Of a stretch of 64,000 bases of DNA, positions 47,844-55,974 are shown one piece after another. The DNA is from Desulfolithobacter dissulfuricans (lineage in GTDB: Bacteria > Desulfobacterota > Desulfobulbia > Desulfobulbales > Desulfobulbaceae): contig NZ_AP024233.1 of the NCBI RefSeq assembly GCF_025998535.1, positions 3,310,001 through 3,374,000 of the forward strand. Direction: 5' to 3'. The translations under genes and the position numbers were made by a program. The notes beneath the pieces were generated by a model. That model did not search any database and was not told where the DNA came from. It worked only from the letters and a program-made list of their open reading frames with translations. Every line of letters begins with the position of its first letter. Position 1 is the first letter of the stretch.

Positions 47844-47865
47844 GGGCGGCCGCGGGGGGCCGCCC
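47844..47865 (-). terminator. Terminator hairpin after the yhaN-like gene
   Basis: GGGCGGCC (47844-47851) pairs exactly with GGCCGCCC (47858-47865) around a 6-nt loop; read leftwards it is followed by GGGTTTTACCC. It begins in the stop codon of the leftward ATPase gene. Confidence 0.65.
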
Positions 47866-50800
47866 TACAGGGGCGATCCCTGTTCGAGGGTGTGGAGATG
47901 GATGGTGGTCTCGAGCTGGCCTGCCAGCTCAACCACCCGGTGGTGGTGGGTGAAGAGGATGATCTGGTTCTTTCTGCCCACCTCGGCCAAGAGTTCCAGG
48001 GTGGCGCGGGAGCGGTCATCGTCGAAGTTGATAAGGATATCGTCGGCGATAAAAGGCATGGACTGGCCGGCCTGGGCCCGCTGGAGAAGCGAGGCCAACC
48101 GGAGGCAGAGGTAGAGCTGATCGCGGGTGCCGGTGGACATACCCTCTACCCCGAGGCGCTGGTTGTCACCCCGCAATCCCACCAGTACCGGCTTGCCCTG
48201 ACCGTCGATGTCGGTGGCCAGGCCGGTGAAGGAGTGCAGAGTGATCCGGGCGAACATGGCCGAGGCGGCCTCCAGGAGTGGATCGCGATTTTCTTCCCGG
48301 AAACGGTCGATCCCGCGCCGCAGGAGGCCGGCGGCCAGGCGGAGGCGGATATAGCGCTCGGCATGCTCCCGCAGCAGGGCCAGGTTTTCCTCAAGCTCGG
48401 ATGCCCGGAGCGCAGCCTGGCTGGTGCCGTCCATCTGGGCCAGTTCCCGCTTAAGTTCGCCCCTCTGCTCGGCCAGGTGCCTGAGTTCCGGTTCAAGATC
48501 CTGCTCGATTTCCCGTCGCAGCTCCCCGATGCGTTCGGGCAGGGTATCGCTGTCTTCGGCGGCCACCTGTTTTTCAAAGCTGTCCAGAGATTGGTCGCCG
48601 GCCAGGGGACGGAGATCGGTTTCCAGAGCCTGGATCGCCTCCTGGAGCCTGGCCTGTTCCGCGGCCCTGCGCTCGACTTCGACCAGCTCCTGTTCCGCCC
48701 GGCATCCGGCCTCGGTGAGAAGTTTCTCCAGCTCCTCCTCCCAGAAACCGATCCTGGTTTCGAGCTCTCCCAGTTCCTGCTCCAGGATTTCTACCTGTTC
48801 TTCCCAGGTACGCTGCCGGGTCTCGATCTCCCGGGCCTGACCAAGAAGCCGGTAAAGGTGCTCGGCGCAATCATCCGGCCGGTCTTCACCGAGCTCCGGG
48901 GCAAGCTGTGCCGCCAGCTGGCGGATCTCCCGGGCAAAGGTTTCGGCGTCCCGGTTGATGCCCCGGATCCGGCTGGTATCCTCGTCCATCTGCTCAAGGA
49001 GATGGAAGAGCTTTTCCACTGCCTCGAGAATCCCCGGGGCGCTGCCCGGATCCAGAGGCACTGCACCCTCCGGCAGGCTGACCGCTGTTTGCCACTGTGC
49101 CTGCCAGTCTTCCTGCTGGCGGGCCGTTTCCGCAAGTTCCCGGTCCACCTCTTCGAGAAGCTGCTGCTGGCGGGCCAGCTCGCGGTCGTGTTCCCGGGCC
49201 AGGGACTGCTGCTCTTCCAGGTCGGTCAGGTGTGCGGCGACCAGGTCGATGACCGGGGCCAGCTCCGGGCCGGACGGTGCGGTTTCCCTGTCCAGCAGGG
49301 ACAGGAGCGCGGCCCGGTGTTCTTCCCGCCGACCGGCCAGGTCCCCGAGCCGAGCCTGCTGTTCCTCCAGGGCAGCTGCCTCGGTTCGCAGGTTCTCCAT
49401 GCGTCGCAGCCAGGCCTGCATCTCGGGCGGTGTGAGCGGAGTAATACCCAGCGGCTGCCAGAGCCCGGTCCAGGACAGGGCGAGCTGTTCCCGTTCCCTG
49501 GCGAGTTTTTCCCGTTCTTCCTCCAGGATGGCCAGCCGGGTGGCGTAGAGCTGTTCATCCGCACCCAGGGCAGCGAACTTGTGGACCCGCTCCGCTTCCA
49601 GGCGCAACCGATCGGCCAGGGTGTCGGCCTGGAGAACGAGTTGTTCATACTGGTCGGCCGGATCGTCCGGAGCCCACTGGTGGAGTAAGTCACCAATCCC
49701 CTCCCCCTGCAGCCAGGCCTGGCGGATGAGACGCCAACCGTGATCCCGATTCCGGCGGATTGTTGCCAGTTCCTCTTCCTTGGGTACGGTCCCGGCCAGT
49801 TCCAGTTCACGCCGGTCCCGGCGCAGTTGCTCCAGCCGTTCCCGTGTTTCGGCAATGGCCTGGTCCTGGCCGGCCAGACGGATCTCCAGGTCCCGGAACT
49901 GTTCCGCAAAGCGACTCACGCTTTCCTCGCCGGGCAGCCGGAGCCGGACCAGGTCCGCTGCCGTGCCCTCCCACAGCTGCTGACGGGCCAGCTCACGGTC
50001 GCAGTGGAGGGCCAGGGCAGCGATTTCCCGCTCGAGCGTCCCGATAGCGATGTCGATGTCACCCAGACGGCGGGCCGCGTCCAGGGCCAGGCGCAGCCTT
50101 TCCATGGTTCGCGGATGGGGTGGTACCAGGGACTGGTCCTGCAACTGCTTGAGCCTCTGCAGGATGGTCCTGCGGCGACGGCCGGTGTCCTGCCGGGCCT
50201 GATCCAGGGCCTCGAAGCGGGTGAGCAGGTGGCGCACCCTTTCCCGGTTGCGCCACAATTCGCCAAGCCGGTCGGCCTGGTCCAGCTCCAGGTTCGGGGC
50301 CGCCATTTTCAGGGCCCTTCTTGCCTCCCGCCGACGGGTGGCGCGCAGCCCCTCGATCCGTGGCAGGTCGCGCTGGGCCTTGCGGTACTCGCTCACCTGC
50401 TGGTAGAAGAACTCGATCCGGGACTCCTGCTCCAGCAGGGCCCGATCGGTGTCCAGGGAACCAAGTTTTGTCTTCAGTTCCGCCAGTCTTGTCCGGTTAC
50501 CGGCCTCCTGAAGGCGCAGGTCGCGCAGCTGTTCCTGGACTTTGAGCCTGCGGGCAGAAAAATCTGGCGCCAGGGGGTGTACCTGGCCAAGTTCGGCCAG
50601 CTGCCTCCGCAGGGCACGGCGGCGACCGATCAGGGAGAAGGCCCGGTGGATCCGGTCCAGAGAACGGATCCTTTGTTCCAGCTCCCGCCTGATTGCATCC
50701 AGGTCCCGGTAGCGGTCAGTCACTTCCCGCAGTTCCCGGTCCGCTTCCAGGTAGCGCTCCGGGGCCAGGGACAGGTCGCGGATCTCCTTTTTCAGTTCCC

Positions 50801-51365
50801 GGTGACGGGCGATGGCCTTGTTGATCAACGGAAGCTGGCCGCCGGACTTGAAAAGACGGCCGCTTTCCTCGTCCAGGCTGGCCATGAGCCGGTGTAAAGA
50901 AGCAACCCCGGTGGAAGCGGCAAAGAGGATGTCGCCCAGTTCACCCCGCTGTTCCAGAATATCGCGGCCACCCTGGACCAGCCGGTCGTGGTCGATCCCG
51001 TACAGAGCTTCGAAGAGCTGCTGGTCCAGGGAGTGGAGGAAAGGATCAAGCGCCCCGGTCGGCAAGGGATTGCCGTCCGGATCGAGCAGGTCACCCTTGT
51101 TGCGCTTGCGGCGGTAGAAACCCAGGCGCTTGCCCTGCTCCTCGATCTCGCCGCCCACCAGGAGCTTGTTGTAGGGATGGAGGAAGGCGTCAGCGGTGCG
51201 GACCGGAAAACCGAAGAGCCAGGCTTTGAGCGCCCGCAGCGAGCTGGACTTGCCGGCCTCGTTGGGACCGAATACCAGGTGCAGGCCGGGCAGGTCCGAG
51301 GAAAAATCGAGAACCCGGCGCGTGAAGGGGCCAAAGGCGGCAATATCCAGGCGAAGAATTCTCAC
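47865..51365 (-). CDS. YhaN-like SMC/Rad50-type ATPase
   Basis: 1166 residues. N-terminal Rad50-like half (ILRLDIAAFGPFTRRVLDF, Walker A FGPNEAGKSSS at about 31-41), very long Glu/Arg/Gln-rich coiled coils (about 170-1000), and C-terminal signature GMSTGTRDQLYLCLRLA with Walker B PFIADDILINFDDDR. The coiled coil has no clear zinc-hook CxxC. The gene start overlaps the stop of the nuclease gene by 4 bp. Together they resemble the YhaN/YhaO branch of SbcCD, thought to act on DNA ends. Confidence 0.93.
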   Translation of the reverse strand: MRILRLDIAAFGPFTRRVLDFSSDLPGLHLVFGPNEAGKSSSLRALKAWLFGFPVRTADAFLHPYNKLLVGGEIEEQGKRLGFYRRKRNKGDLLDPDGNPLPTGALDPFLHSLDQQLFEALYGIDHDRLVQGGRDILEQRGELGDILFAASTGVASLHRLMASLDEESGRLFKSGGQLPLINKAIARHRELKKEIRDLSLAPERYLEADRELREVTDRYRDLDAIRRELEQRIRSLDRIHRAFSLIGRRRALRRQLAELGQVHPLAPDFSARRLKVQEQLRDLRLQEAGNRTRLAELKTKLGSLDTDRALLEQESRIEFFYQQVSEYRKAQRDLPRIEGLRATRRREARRALKMAAPNLELDQADRLGELWRNRERVRHLLTRFEALDQARQDTGRRRRTILQRLKQLQDQSLVPPHPRTMERLRLALDAARRLGDIDIAIGTLEREIAALALHCDRELARQQLWEGTAADLVRLRLPGEESVSRFAEQFRDLEIRLAGQDQAIAETRERLEQLRRDRRELELAGTVPKEEELATIRRNRDHGWRLIRQAWLQGEGIGDLLHQWAPDDPADQYEQLVLQADTLADRLRLEAERVHKFAALGADEQLYATRLAILEEEREKLAREREQLALSWTGLWQPLGITPLTPPEMQAWLRRMENLRTEAAALEEQQARLGDLAGRREEHRAALLSLLDRETAPSGPELAPVIDLVAAHLTDLEEQQSLAREHDRELARQQQLLEEVDRELAETARQQEDWQAQWQTAVSLPEGAVPLDPGSAPGILEAVEKLFHLLEQMDEDTSRIRGINRDAETFAREIRQLAAQLAPELGEDRPDDCAEHLYRLLGQAREIETRQRTWEEQVEILEQELGELETRIGFWEEELEKLLTEAGCRAEQELVEVERRAAEQARLQEAIQALETDLRPLAGDQSLDSFEKQVAAEDSDTLPERIGELRREIEQDLEPELRHLAEQRGELKRELAQMDGTSQAALRASELEENLALLREHAERYIRLRLAAGLLRRGIDRFREENRDPLLEAASAMFARITLHSFTGLATDIDGQGKPVLVGLRGDNQRLGVEGMSTGTRDQLYLCLRLASLLQRAQAGQSMPFIADDILINFDDDRSRATLELLAEVGRKNQIILFTHHHRVVELAGQLETTIHLHTLEQGSPL

Positions 51366-52597
51366 GGGGTCCCCCGGTGGCCAAGGATCCGGCCCAGGAG
51401 CAAGTCCCGGGCCGTGCTGAGCAGTTCGCGGCTTTGGGCGGGATCATCGGGGAGGAGGGATTCCCGGCCGCCGAGTTCCGGGGGCAGCCTGCCAAGGAAC
51501 TTTTCCAGCTCCGGCGCCAGCTCCAGGGGGGAATCGATCTCCGCAAGCAACCGCTCCAGGTCTTCCAGCCCGGGGTCAGCCGTTACAGGATCGCAGGCAG
51601 GGGGCCGGGTACGCAACCGGATCTTTTCCAGCCACACCTCGCCCAGGTCACCGGCCAGGGCCATAAGTTCCGACACCAGGTGCTCCCGGTCCCGGTGCAG
51701 CTCCGGATGACAGGATACCTCGCCGCTCAGTTCCAGACGGACCGCCACCGGCCGGCCATCGGCCCGGTCCGCGGTATCACTCAGGTCATGACCGGTCCGT
51801 TCCAGAACCTCGTCCACACTGGTGCAACCGGTAAGATCCACCCGGCACAGGCTCCAGCGCACCACGTCCAGGTCCCGGTGCTCCACTGCGGTGACCTTCC
51901 CGTTTTCCACCGTCACCAGGGTGGCGCCCCGGGGTCCGGCCTCGCGGATGTGGCGCCCCTGAATGTTGCCGGGAAAGACGATCCAGGGGTCCCGGTGCAC
52001 CACTTCGCGCTGGTGCACATGACCCAGGGCCCAATAGTCGTAGCCTCGGCTGACCAGGTCCTCCACCGTGCACGGGGCATAGGGTTCGTGCCCGGGACGG
52101 CCGGAAAGCCCGGTGTGGAGCAGGCCGATGTTGAACATGTCCGGGTCCGGATCCGGATAGGAAAGGGCCAGATTGTCGGTGACCGCTCGCCGATCGTAGC
52201 CGCGGCCATGGATCGCCACCCGCAGATCCTCCAGGACCACGGTCTCGGCCCGCCGGGTGGAAAACTGGACCACATTGTCCGGTAACCGCAGGGCCGTGGT
52301 AATCCGGCTGGAGGCGTCATGGTTGCCGGAGACCAGGAAAACCCGGATCCCGGCCCGGCCGAGGCGCTGCATGTGGCTGATGAAATAGAGCCCGGTGTGG
52401 TAATCCTTCCAGGCCCCGTCGTAGAGGTCGCCTCCGATCAGAACGAAGGCCACCTGCTGATCCAGGGCCAGCTGAACCAGGTCGGCAAAGGCGCGGCGGA
52501 CCGCGCCGCGAATCACGGAGCCATCCTGTTCCCGCAGGGCCAGATTGCGCAGCGGACTGTCCAGGTGAATATCGGCGCAGTGGAGAAAGATAAACAA
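51362..52597 (-). CDS. YhaO-like DNA repair exonuclease (SbcD/Mre11-type)
   Basis: 411 residues. Mre11-type phosphoesterase motifs in order: CADIHLDSPLRNL, LIGGDLYDGAWKD, VSGNHDASSRI, LLHTGLSG, and ALGHVHQREV. The C-terminal third is a poorly conserved capping region. It is translated ahead of and coupled to the ATPase gene (ATGA overlap). Confidence 0.94.
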   Translation of the reverse strand: MFIFLHCADIHLDSPLRNLALREQDGSVIRGAVRRAFADLVQLALDQQVAFVLIGGDLYDGAWKDYHTGLYFISHMQRLGRAGIRVFLVSGNHDASSRITTALRLPDNVVQFSTRRAETVVLEDLRVAIHGRGYDRRAVTDNLALSYPDPDPDMFNIGLLHTGLSGRPGHEPYAPCTVEDLVSRGYDYWALGHVHQREVVHRDPWIVFPGNIQGRHIREAGPRGATLVTVENGKVTAVEHRDLDVVRWSLCRVDLTGCTSVDEVLERTGHDLSDTADRADGRPVAVRLELSGEVSCHPELHRDREHLVSELMALAGDLGEVWLEKIRLRTRPPACDPVTADPGLEDLERLLAEIDSPLELAPELEKFLGRLPPELGGRESLLPDDPAQSRELLSTARDLLLGRILGHRGTP

Positions 52598-54087: not shown

Positions 54088-54432
54088 TGTCTCTTTTCTG
54101 GTCTGGAACAGGTGGTCTGACGGCGGCCGGGTCTCCGCACATCTCTGCCCCGGAGGATACCGATCCTCTGTCAGTAAGCCGTTAGAAAGCCGTTATGTCT
54201 CTGATATGAAAAAACAGCCACAGTACCACAACGGGTGACAGTTCATCCAGAAAAAAAGCCGGGGTGATCAGGAGGGCGACAGCCCGTCCGGGCCCGGTTT
54301 TTCGTCGGAAGCGGGATCCCGAAGGTCCAGATCCAGGATTTCGGGACTTGAACCTGGCAAGGCACCGGCAGATGCGCTACACTGGACGAACGATTCTGGA
54401 CTCTATCAGTTGAAACCGCAAGGAGGAAACAA
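54088..54432. other. Gene-free divergent region
   Basis: 345 bp between divergent genes. A T-arm-like sequence (54336-54354, minus strand, containing GGTTCAAGTCCCGA) resembles a tRNA fragment, but no complete cloverleaf can be drawn. GC-rich palindrome CCGGGCCCGG followed by TTTTT near 54288-54302 could be a weak terminator. Confidence 0.4.
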
Positions 54433-54774
54433 ATGACCATTGACTGGGCATACCTGCGCAAGGGCTGAAAATCGTGCATCAGGGCACAGGCTGTGTTTGA
54501 CGAGAAGGGCATTGAAATAAAAGAGACGGTGGAAGCCCGGAAAGAGAAAATCGAGGGGGACGATGCCTGGGCCATCCTGTCCGGGGCCAGGGAAATCGTG
54601 GTCGGCCGGGGGAAGAAGTTCCAGGTCCTGGATCCGGCCACGGACGACCGGGACGAAATACTGAGGCTCTGTCTCGGCCGGACCGGCAACCTGCGGGCGC
54701 CGACCCTCAAGATCGGCGACCGGGTCGTGGTCGGTTTCAACGAGGCGATGTATGAACAGTATGTTCAGGGCTGA
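54433..54774 (+). CDS. Selenoprotein: ArsC/Spx-like protein with in-frame UGA (Sec)
   Basis: 113 residues if the TGA at 54466-54468 (codon 12) is read as selenocysteine: MTIDWAYLRKG-U-KSC, then IRAQAVFDEKGIEIKE. In ArsC/Spx-like proteins this is the CxxC redox site at the end of strand 1 (YxRKGCxTC), so Sec replaces the first Cys. The ATG has a strong ribosome site (AAGGAGG). The frame stays open to 54774 with family-like features (ILSGAREIVVGRGKK, and LRAPTLKIGDRVVVGF with the cis-Pro). A SECIS-like hairpin follows the UGA. Annotation pipelines would start this gene at the GTG at 54493 and miss the active site. Likely a thiol/selenol oxidoreductase. Confidence 0.88.
54472..54503 (+). promoter_or_regulatory. 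Bacterial SECIS-like hairpin after the UGA codon
   Basis: Starting 3 nt after the UGA: outer pairs TCGT/ACGA (54472-54475 with 54500-54503), inner stem CA-CAG with a bulged T at 54479 pairing CTGTG (54491-54495), apical loop GGCACAGG. A short stem with a bulged U and a G-rich loop about 11 nt past the UGA is what SelB recognises in known bacterial cases. Confidence 0.6.
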
Positions 54775-54789
54775 CAGCGGTCGCATCCG

Positions 54790-55974
54790 ATGACGACCTC
54801 ATTGCACAAACGTTTGGCCGGCCGGCTGGAGCGGCTGGAGGACGAAGGACTGCGCCGCAACCTGGTGGAACTCATTCCCGGGCCGAACAACCGTATCCGG
54901 GTGGGTGGCCGGGACTACCTCAACCTGGCCGGCAACGACTACCTGGGGCTGGCGGCCGACCCCGGGCTGGTCCGCCGGTTCTACGACAGCCTCGATGACC
55001 GGAACCTGCTGGAACGCTTTGCCCCCGGGGCCCGGGCCTCACGGCTGATGACCGGCAACAGCTCCCTGTACAGGGAACTGGAGACCCGGCTGGCCACCCT
55101 GTACGGGAGCGAAAGAGCGCTGGTCTTCAACTCCGGCTACCACATCAACATCGGTATCCTCCCGGCCCTGGCCACCAGGGACGACCTGATCCTGGCCGAC
55201 AAGCTCTGCCACGCCAGTCTTATCGACGGCATGCGGCTCTCGCGGGCCGAGGTGATCCGCTATCCCCATCTCGACTACCAGCGGATCCGGACCATCCTGG
55301 AACAGAAACGGGAGCGGTTCGACCAGGTGTTCCTGGTCACGGAATCCATCTTTTCTATGGACGGCGACCTGGCCGACCTGGGGGAGCTGGTCCGGATCCG
55401 GGACGAGTTCGATCTCTGCCTGTACGTGGACGAGGCCCATGCGGTGGGGGTCGCTGGCCGGCAGGGCCTGGGCCTTGCCGAGGAGCAGAACGTCAGCGGC
55501 CGTATCGACCTGCTGGTCGGCACCTTCGGCAAGGCATGGGGGGGCCAGGGCGCCTTTGTCGCCTGTTCGGATATTATCGCCGATGGGCTGATCAACCAGG
55601 CCCGGTCGCTGATATTCACCACCGGACTGCCCCCGGTCAACCTGCACTGGCTTCTCTTTCTGAGCCATATCATCCCCGGGATGGAGGAGAAGCGGGACCG
55701 GCTGCGGGCCATCTCGGCCTGGCTCCGGGAAGGGCTCCTTCAGCGGGGCCTGCGCACCGGCGGCAACAGCCAGATCGTGCCGGTGATGATCGGCGACGCG
55801 AGCCGCACCGTGGCCGTGGCCGAGCGGCTGCGCGAGGCCGGTTTCTGGGTCAATGGTGTGCGGCCGCCCACTGTGCCGCCGGGTACCTCGCGGCTCCGTT
55901 TCTCCCTGAGCGCCACCATGACCGAAGAGGAACTGGCCACTCTCCCGGATCGGATCGAATCGGTGCTTGCCTGA
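54790..55974 (+). CDS. bioF: 8-amino-7-oxononanoate synthase
   Basis: 394 residues, fold-type I PLP enzyme. Motifs: NLAGNDYLGLAADP, GARASRLMTGNSSLYRELE, FNSGYHINIGILPAL, LYVDEAHAVGVAGRQGLG and the PLP lysine in VGTFGKAWGGQGAF. It condenses pimeloyl-ACP/CoA with alanine in biotin synthesis. The related glycine C-acetyltransferase is the alternative, but the coupled bioG and later bioC and bioD settle it. Confidence 0.93.
   Translation: MTTSLHKRLAGRLERLEDEGLRRNLVELIPGPNNRIRVGGRDYLNLAGNDYLGLAADPGLVRRFYDSLDDRNLLERFAPGARASRLMTGNSSLYRELETRLATLYGSERALVFNSGYHINIGILPALATRDDLILADKLCHASLIDGMRLSRAEVIRYPHLDYQRIRTILEQKRERFDQVFLVTESIFSMDGDLADLGELVRIRDEFDLCLYVDEAHAVGVAGRQGLGLAEEQNVSGRIDLLVGTFGKAWGGQGAFVACSDIIADGLINQARSLIFTTGLPPVNLHWLLFLSHIIPGMEEKRDRLRAISAWLREGLLQRGLRTGGNSQIVPVMIGDASRTVAVAERLREAGFWVNGVRPPTVPPGTSRLRFSLSATMTEEELATLPDRIESVLA

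Follow-up and report, generated by a model that had tools for sequence, protein, structure and literature searches.

A UGA-containing ArsC/Spx-like gene of Desulfolithobacter dissulfuricans as a well-supported new member of a catalogued selenoprotein family

Results and discussion

The gene, its reading frame and its start

We have analyzed a stretch of 64,000 nucleotides (the window) of the Desulfolithobacter dissulfuricans genome, which is a single contig of 3,596,428 bases. All coordinates given below are those of the window. On the plus strand at 54433..54774 lies a gene for an ArsC/Spx-like protein of 113 residues, assigned by its translation, a profile match and its relatives to the family NF041106, with selenocysteine (Sec, U) at position 12. 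The reading frame from the ATG at 54433 to the final stop codon TGA (54772-54774) has a single interruption, the UGA of codon 12 (54466..54468, plus strand). When this codon is translated as Sec, as the aligned relatives suggest, the protein reads MTIDWAYLRKGUKSCIRAQ...EQYVQG. The TGC codon at 54475..54477 on the same strand encodes Cys15, the presumed resolving residue of the motif UxxC, as judged from the translation and the aligned genes. A ribosome-binding site read directly from the sequence, AAGGAGG (54420..54426, plus strand), is spaced six bases from the ATG, and inspection by eye finds purine-rich sites resembling it before many of the relatives' genes. A SECIS-like hairpin, GGGCACA-GGC-UGUGUUU (54482..54498, plus strand), starts 13 nt after the UGA in a conserved register, although it is weak in this gene. 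Downstream and separate from the selenoprotein gene is a class I/II aminotransferase gene (54790..55974, plus strand; ORF listing, Pfam and neighbour clusters), which is probably bioF, and this is followed by a BioG gene identified by Pfam.

A preliminary description of this DNA had located the in-frame UGA at the place of the first active-site Cys, with a Cys three residues on and a strong ribosome site at the upstream ATG, and had warned that standard gene calling would start at 54493 and lose the active site. These observations all hold. The table-11 ORF listing gives a GTG start at 54493 and discards the active site, so that the warning is right for simple gene calling. The same listing is what one would expect if the UGA were an ordinary stop and the real protein a short one, translated from the GTG and devoid of the active site. 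Codons 2-11 do not behave accordingly. Comparison of the window gene with 51 relatives gives mean pN/pS values of 0.122 ahead of the UGA (codons 2-11), 0.451 just after it (codons 13-30) and 0.415 further on (codons 31-112); the segment before the UGA is thus the best conserved at the protein level while synonymous change is free. Since it is the most constrained of the three parts, a terminated peptide of 11 residues is inadequate as an explanation. The AAGGAGG before the upstream ATG, and the occurrence of Cys at codon 12 in 5 of 5 relatives that lack the TGA, also argue against termination, which we regard as very improbable. That 54433-54774 is a genuine selenoprotein gene has in our estimate a probability of about 95%: in a small redox protein, a nominal stop codon very probably serves to place selenocysteine in the active site. 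Computation supports this reading through coding across the UGA, Sec/Cys conservation, the decoding machinery, RNA constraint in the family and the predicted fold. Several tests together confirm a selenoprotein that plain ORF calling would cut at its active site.

Relatives and the conservation of codon 12

Relatives were sought in three overlapping samples of genomes. The family is carried by 55 of 96 genomes (that of the window included), and all 56 matches in them hold exactly one TGA. In 297 genomes of the phylum, 16 matches scored over the cut-off, each with one TGA; five more fell below it, three with one TGA and two with none. Of 257 genomes of the class 165 scored over the cut-off, and among the 150 matches listed 145 have one TGA and five lack it; two genomes of this sample (G403 and G419) gave weak matches only. 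The named relatives are mostly Desulfobulbaceae and Desulfuromonas. A pattern scan of viral contigs found no relative.

Seventy loci were scanned, four of which had no match (L082-L085). The resulting alignment has 64 rows representing 52 distinct genes, and leaves out an Spx/ArsC-like gene with Cys (L066) and a different ArsC-like gene with a UGA (L081). Codon 12 is TGA in all 52 distinct genes, and codon 15 encodes Cys in 51 of them and Ser in one. In the five genes without the TGA, position 12 is always Cys, encoded by TGT in four and by TGC in the fifth, and the genes read showed no sense codon for any other residue at this place. A second thiol is missing in some members: L078 is a Sec form with UxxS and L108 a Cys form with CxxS.

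The selenocysteine machinery

The preliminary description had proposed a search for the Sec machinery as a check, and this search was positive: tRNA-Sec (73 bits), SelA (637.4 bits), SelB (380.2 bits) and SelD (351.8 bits) all score over their cut-offs in the genome of the window. The selD gene itself contains one TGA, read as U11 of the matched stretch, and is an internal precedent for Sec decoding. Across the 96 genomes SelA was found in 86, that of the window among them. Among the 55 genomes with the selenoprotein gene 51 have SelA, but so have 35 of the 41 without it, and co-occurrence is therefore weak evidence.

The four gene-carrying genomes in which SelA was not found are G029 (74% complete), G031 (93%), G043 (87%) and G095 (100%). 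No tRNA-Sec scored over the cut-off in G029 and no SelD in G031. G095, which consists of two contigs, has tRNA-Sec, SelB, a UGA-containing SelD and the selenoprotein gene (L044, L089, L094 and L100); neither a profile search nor a protein search found SelA in it, which a hidden stretch in the searched sequence could explain. The protein search for SelA in five relatives gave a match only in G069.

A catalogued family

The window protein matches the NCBIfam profile NF041106, "ArsC family (seleno)protein", over its full length with 129.6 bits, against a cut-off of 85. This family is defined by Sec (UGA) or Cys at the first active-site position, and the UGA is found there at codon 12. All 52 aligned members match the same profile at E 0.001. 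With its full-length match over the cut-off, its UxxC motif and its UGA-encoded Sec, the window protein shows no essential difference from NF041106. The selenoproteins tabulated in a 2026 review (PMC13188914) include an "Arsenate reductase-like protein, NF041106, UxxC", and the review describes the functions of such selenoproteins as largely uncharacterized; a 2022 review (PMC9312934) likewise lists an "Arsenate reductase-like protein" with UxxC. The family is consequently known. The preliminary description had spoken of an overlooked selenoprotein: the selenoprotein part of that claim withstood both the search for the machinery and the alignment of homologues (Sec in 52 of 52 distinct genes, Cys in 5 of 5 without TGA), whereas NF041106 and the two reviews show that at the family level nothing had been overlooked. 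The gene is a well-supported new sequence of a catalogued family, and as such a new example, not a discovery.

Earlier surveys had already touched on similar proteins. Zhang et al. 2006 (PMC1794560) describe an ArsC-like selenoprotein in Desulfotalea psychrophila, which by its description resembles the present one in being a deltaproteobacterial ArsC-like selenoprotein. ArsC-like is also among the families that, in their account, sister organisms of Desulfotalea and of Desulfuromonas acetoxidans have lost. An ocean survey of 2008 (PMC2398784) distinguishes two groups of arsenate reductase selenoproteins, UxxS and UxxC.

The SECIS-like hairpin

In the preliminary description a SECIS-like hairpin had been placed 3 nt after the UGA. 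No conserved hairpin was found at that position; the conserved one is that at 54482-54498, in which 54482-54488 pair with 54492-54498 around the loop GGC (54489-54491). Three of its seven pairs are G-U. According to the bSECIS model as set out in the 2026 review (PMC13188914), the loop measures 3-9 nt with G in its first two positions, the stem 4-16 bp, the distance from the UGA 16-37 nt and the minimum free energy at most -7.5 kcal/mol. The geometry of the window hairpin agrees with this model: the loop is GGC, the stem has 7 bp, and the loop lies 20 nt beyond the UGA triplet. Its energy is less easily compared with the -7.5 of the model, being -10 kcal/mol for 50 nt with other pairing and -5.3 for codons 15-25 alone. 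Taken alone the window hairpin is weak, being matched in its folding by 56 of 200 synonymous recodings (z -0.41), a result that would also be expected if the UGA were an ordinary stop. For 54466-54515 the minimum-energy fold does not surpass those of shuffled sequences (z -0.11), and its pairing differs from that of the conserved hairpin. An Rfam search of 54400-54800 returned one match only, to ArcZ on the other strand, at 14.9 bits where the gathering score is 66.

A signal appears when the family is considered as a whole. In 30-base windows along the 52 genes, compared with synonymous recodings, there is a single peak of excess structure around codons 14-27. The mean z is -1.60 for codons 15-24 (38 of 52 genes below -1) and -1.56 for codons 16-25 (39 of 52), while outside the windows that start at codons 14-18 the lowest mean z is -0.59. 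The best continuous hairpin shares one centre in 30 of the 52 genes, that of the window included, and lies elsewhere in the other 22. Because the register differs between groups in this way, RNAalifold finds essentially no common structure in the codon alignment of all 52 genes. A simple hairpin search finds G in the first two loop positions in 51 of the 52 Sec genes, the exception being L030; among four further Sec genes the loop G is present in three and missing in L112.

Two subsets differ in the form that the constraint takes. In a subset of 11 genes, four of eight stem pairs change on both sides, a number as high in only 1 of 500 shuffles, and the covariation score is reached by none of the 500. 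In the subset of 30 genes to which the window gene belongs covariation is absent, 291 of 500 shuffles scoring as high. The stem codons of this subset are frozen: codon 18 is GCA in 30 of 30 genes (share elsewhere in the gene 0.23), codon 21 is GTG in 30 of 30 (0.29) and codon 20 is GCT in 16 of the 20 rows with Ala (0.13). These rows are related, so the counts do not represent independent events.

An apparent switch from Sec to Cys

The five Cys forms all come from one genus-level group (g28), of which another member, G073, keeps the TGA. In a tree of 61 proteins, which leaves out L112, the Cys forms fall together with two Sec forms inside a supported group (98/84; seven rows). Two changes of label between Sec and Cys are needed on this tree, although the Cys forms may have had a single origin nonetheless. 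The natural reading is that Sec has been replaced by Cys in g28. Table 1 of Zhang et al. 2006 (PMC1794560), by contrast with these five Cys forms nested among Sec forms, records for ArsC-like proteins one Cys-to-Sec event and no Sec-to-Cys event.

In all five Cys genes the loop of the best hairpin lacks G in its first two positions (AA in four, AC in one). One of them, L108, keeps a stem of 7 bp; the remaining four have no continuous stem longer than 3 or 4 bp, and their loops can therefore be compared only loosely. Overall folding energy was tried as a separator of Cys and Sec forms and fails: for codons 15-24 it is -4.6 to -11.2 kcal/mol in the Cys forms, against a mean of -7.92 in the 52 Sec forms. 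The differences are confined to the loop and the continuous stem. On balance we favour a switch from Sec to Cys in one genus-level group, in which the loop G of the SECIS was lost while most of the stem lingers, as coding sequence, in one gene. This apparent switch is the modest new element of the present analysis. If true, it would let one test, before and after a natural change, which parts of the SECIS are selected only while Sec is used, and the compact family allows a comparison of Sec with Cys forms and of hairpins that differ in register.

Fold, mechanism and function

The structure predicted for the protein (pLDDT 95.6, pTM 0.88) has an Spx/ArsC-like fold. Structural re-alignment places Spx, ArsC-related and YffB chains in the top twelve rows with moderate Z scores (9.0 to 7.4), and glutaredoxin-like chains below these. 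Foldseek puts Spx first, and a profile search against the sequences of solved structures gives YffB, Spx and a putative arsenate reductase. The invariant residues include W5, Y7, R9, position 12 and the motif LRAP.

An arsenate reductase with a selenol nucleophile is suggested by the ArsC-type fold, by the family name and by the selenoproteins, UxxS and also UxxC, that the literature cited above lists under that name. The window protein scores 18.8 against Pfam ArsC (PF03960), under the gathering cut-off of 24, and the reactivity of the selenol with arsenate that the preliminary description anticipated gains little from its sequence. In classical ArsC an Arg directly precedes the corresponding Pro; here the LRAP motif, present in 52 of 52 genes, puts R88 two residues, not one, before P90. 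The three window neighbours submitted to Pfam are an aminotransferase, BioG and a phosphoesterase. We consider an arsenate reductase unlikely. A redox-sensing transcription regulator of the Spx type would agree with the best solved-structure matches by sequence and by fold, which include Spx, and the Spx/MgsR regulators share with the window protein both its fold and, close to the N-terminus, a site of the CxxC type. The scores are far under the family cut-offs (29.5 against 75.05 for TIGR01617 and 24.7 against 159 for SpxA), and a regulator of this kind seems a little less likely still. The Uxx-star glutaredoxin-like selenoproteins (NF041212) resemble it weakly in the region of the active site, at 18.4 bits where the cut-off is 66; the window protein, with 113 residues, is longer than their profile of 70 positions, and glutaredoxins come after Spx in its structure lists.

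The role that we find fairly probable is that of a selenol-thiol oxidoreductase acting via a selenylsulfide. Translation would begin at the ATG at 54433, and at the UGA at 54466 SelB with Sec-tRNA would insert selenocysteine, presumably guided by the hairpin 13 nt downstream. The product would be a small protein with a thioredoxin fold, of the ArsC/Spx/glutaredoxin type, whose active site is U12-x-x-C15. Its selenol would most likely attack an oxidised substrate or a disulfide, and the resulting intermediate would be resolved by Cys15 via a selenylsulfide, in the manner of glutaredoxin-like oxidoreductases. Such a selenol-dependent activity in these bacteria is a candidate for testing.

Neighbouring genes and divergent relatives

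The neighbour cluster that holds the aminotransferase of the window comes after the selenoprotein gene in 10 of 29 loci, some of which span only about 1.5 kb on each side, and a second cluster does so in 8 of the 29. The link to biotin genes is weak and serves as a lead, not as evidence of function. At 47865-52597 on the minus strand of the window, an ATPase-like protein of 1166 residues and a phosphoesterase-like protein of 411 residues are encoded in tandem; by eye from their translations they resemble an SbcC/SbcD-type nuclease pair.

Two divergent genes were seen among the loci. L112, the second copy in genome G005, carries UKPC as its motif, is shortened in the middle and forms a weak hairpin. 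L081, at about 1482-1830 in its locus from genome G160, is the other ArsC/Spx-like gene with an in-frame UGA; its motif is UTTC, it scores below the NF041106 cut-off and has an 8-bp hairpin from nt 19, counted from the U of the UGA. It possibly represents another ArsC-type selenoprotein family.
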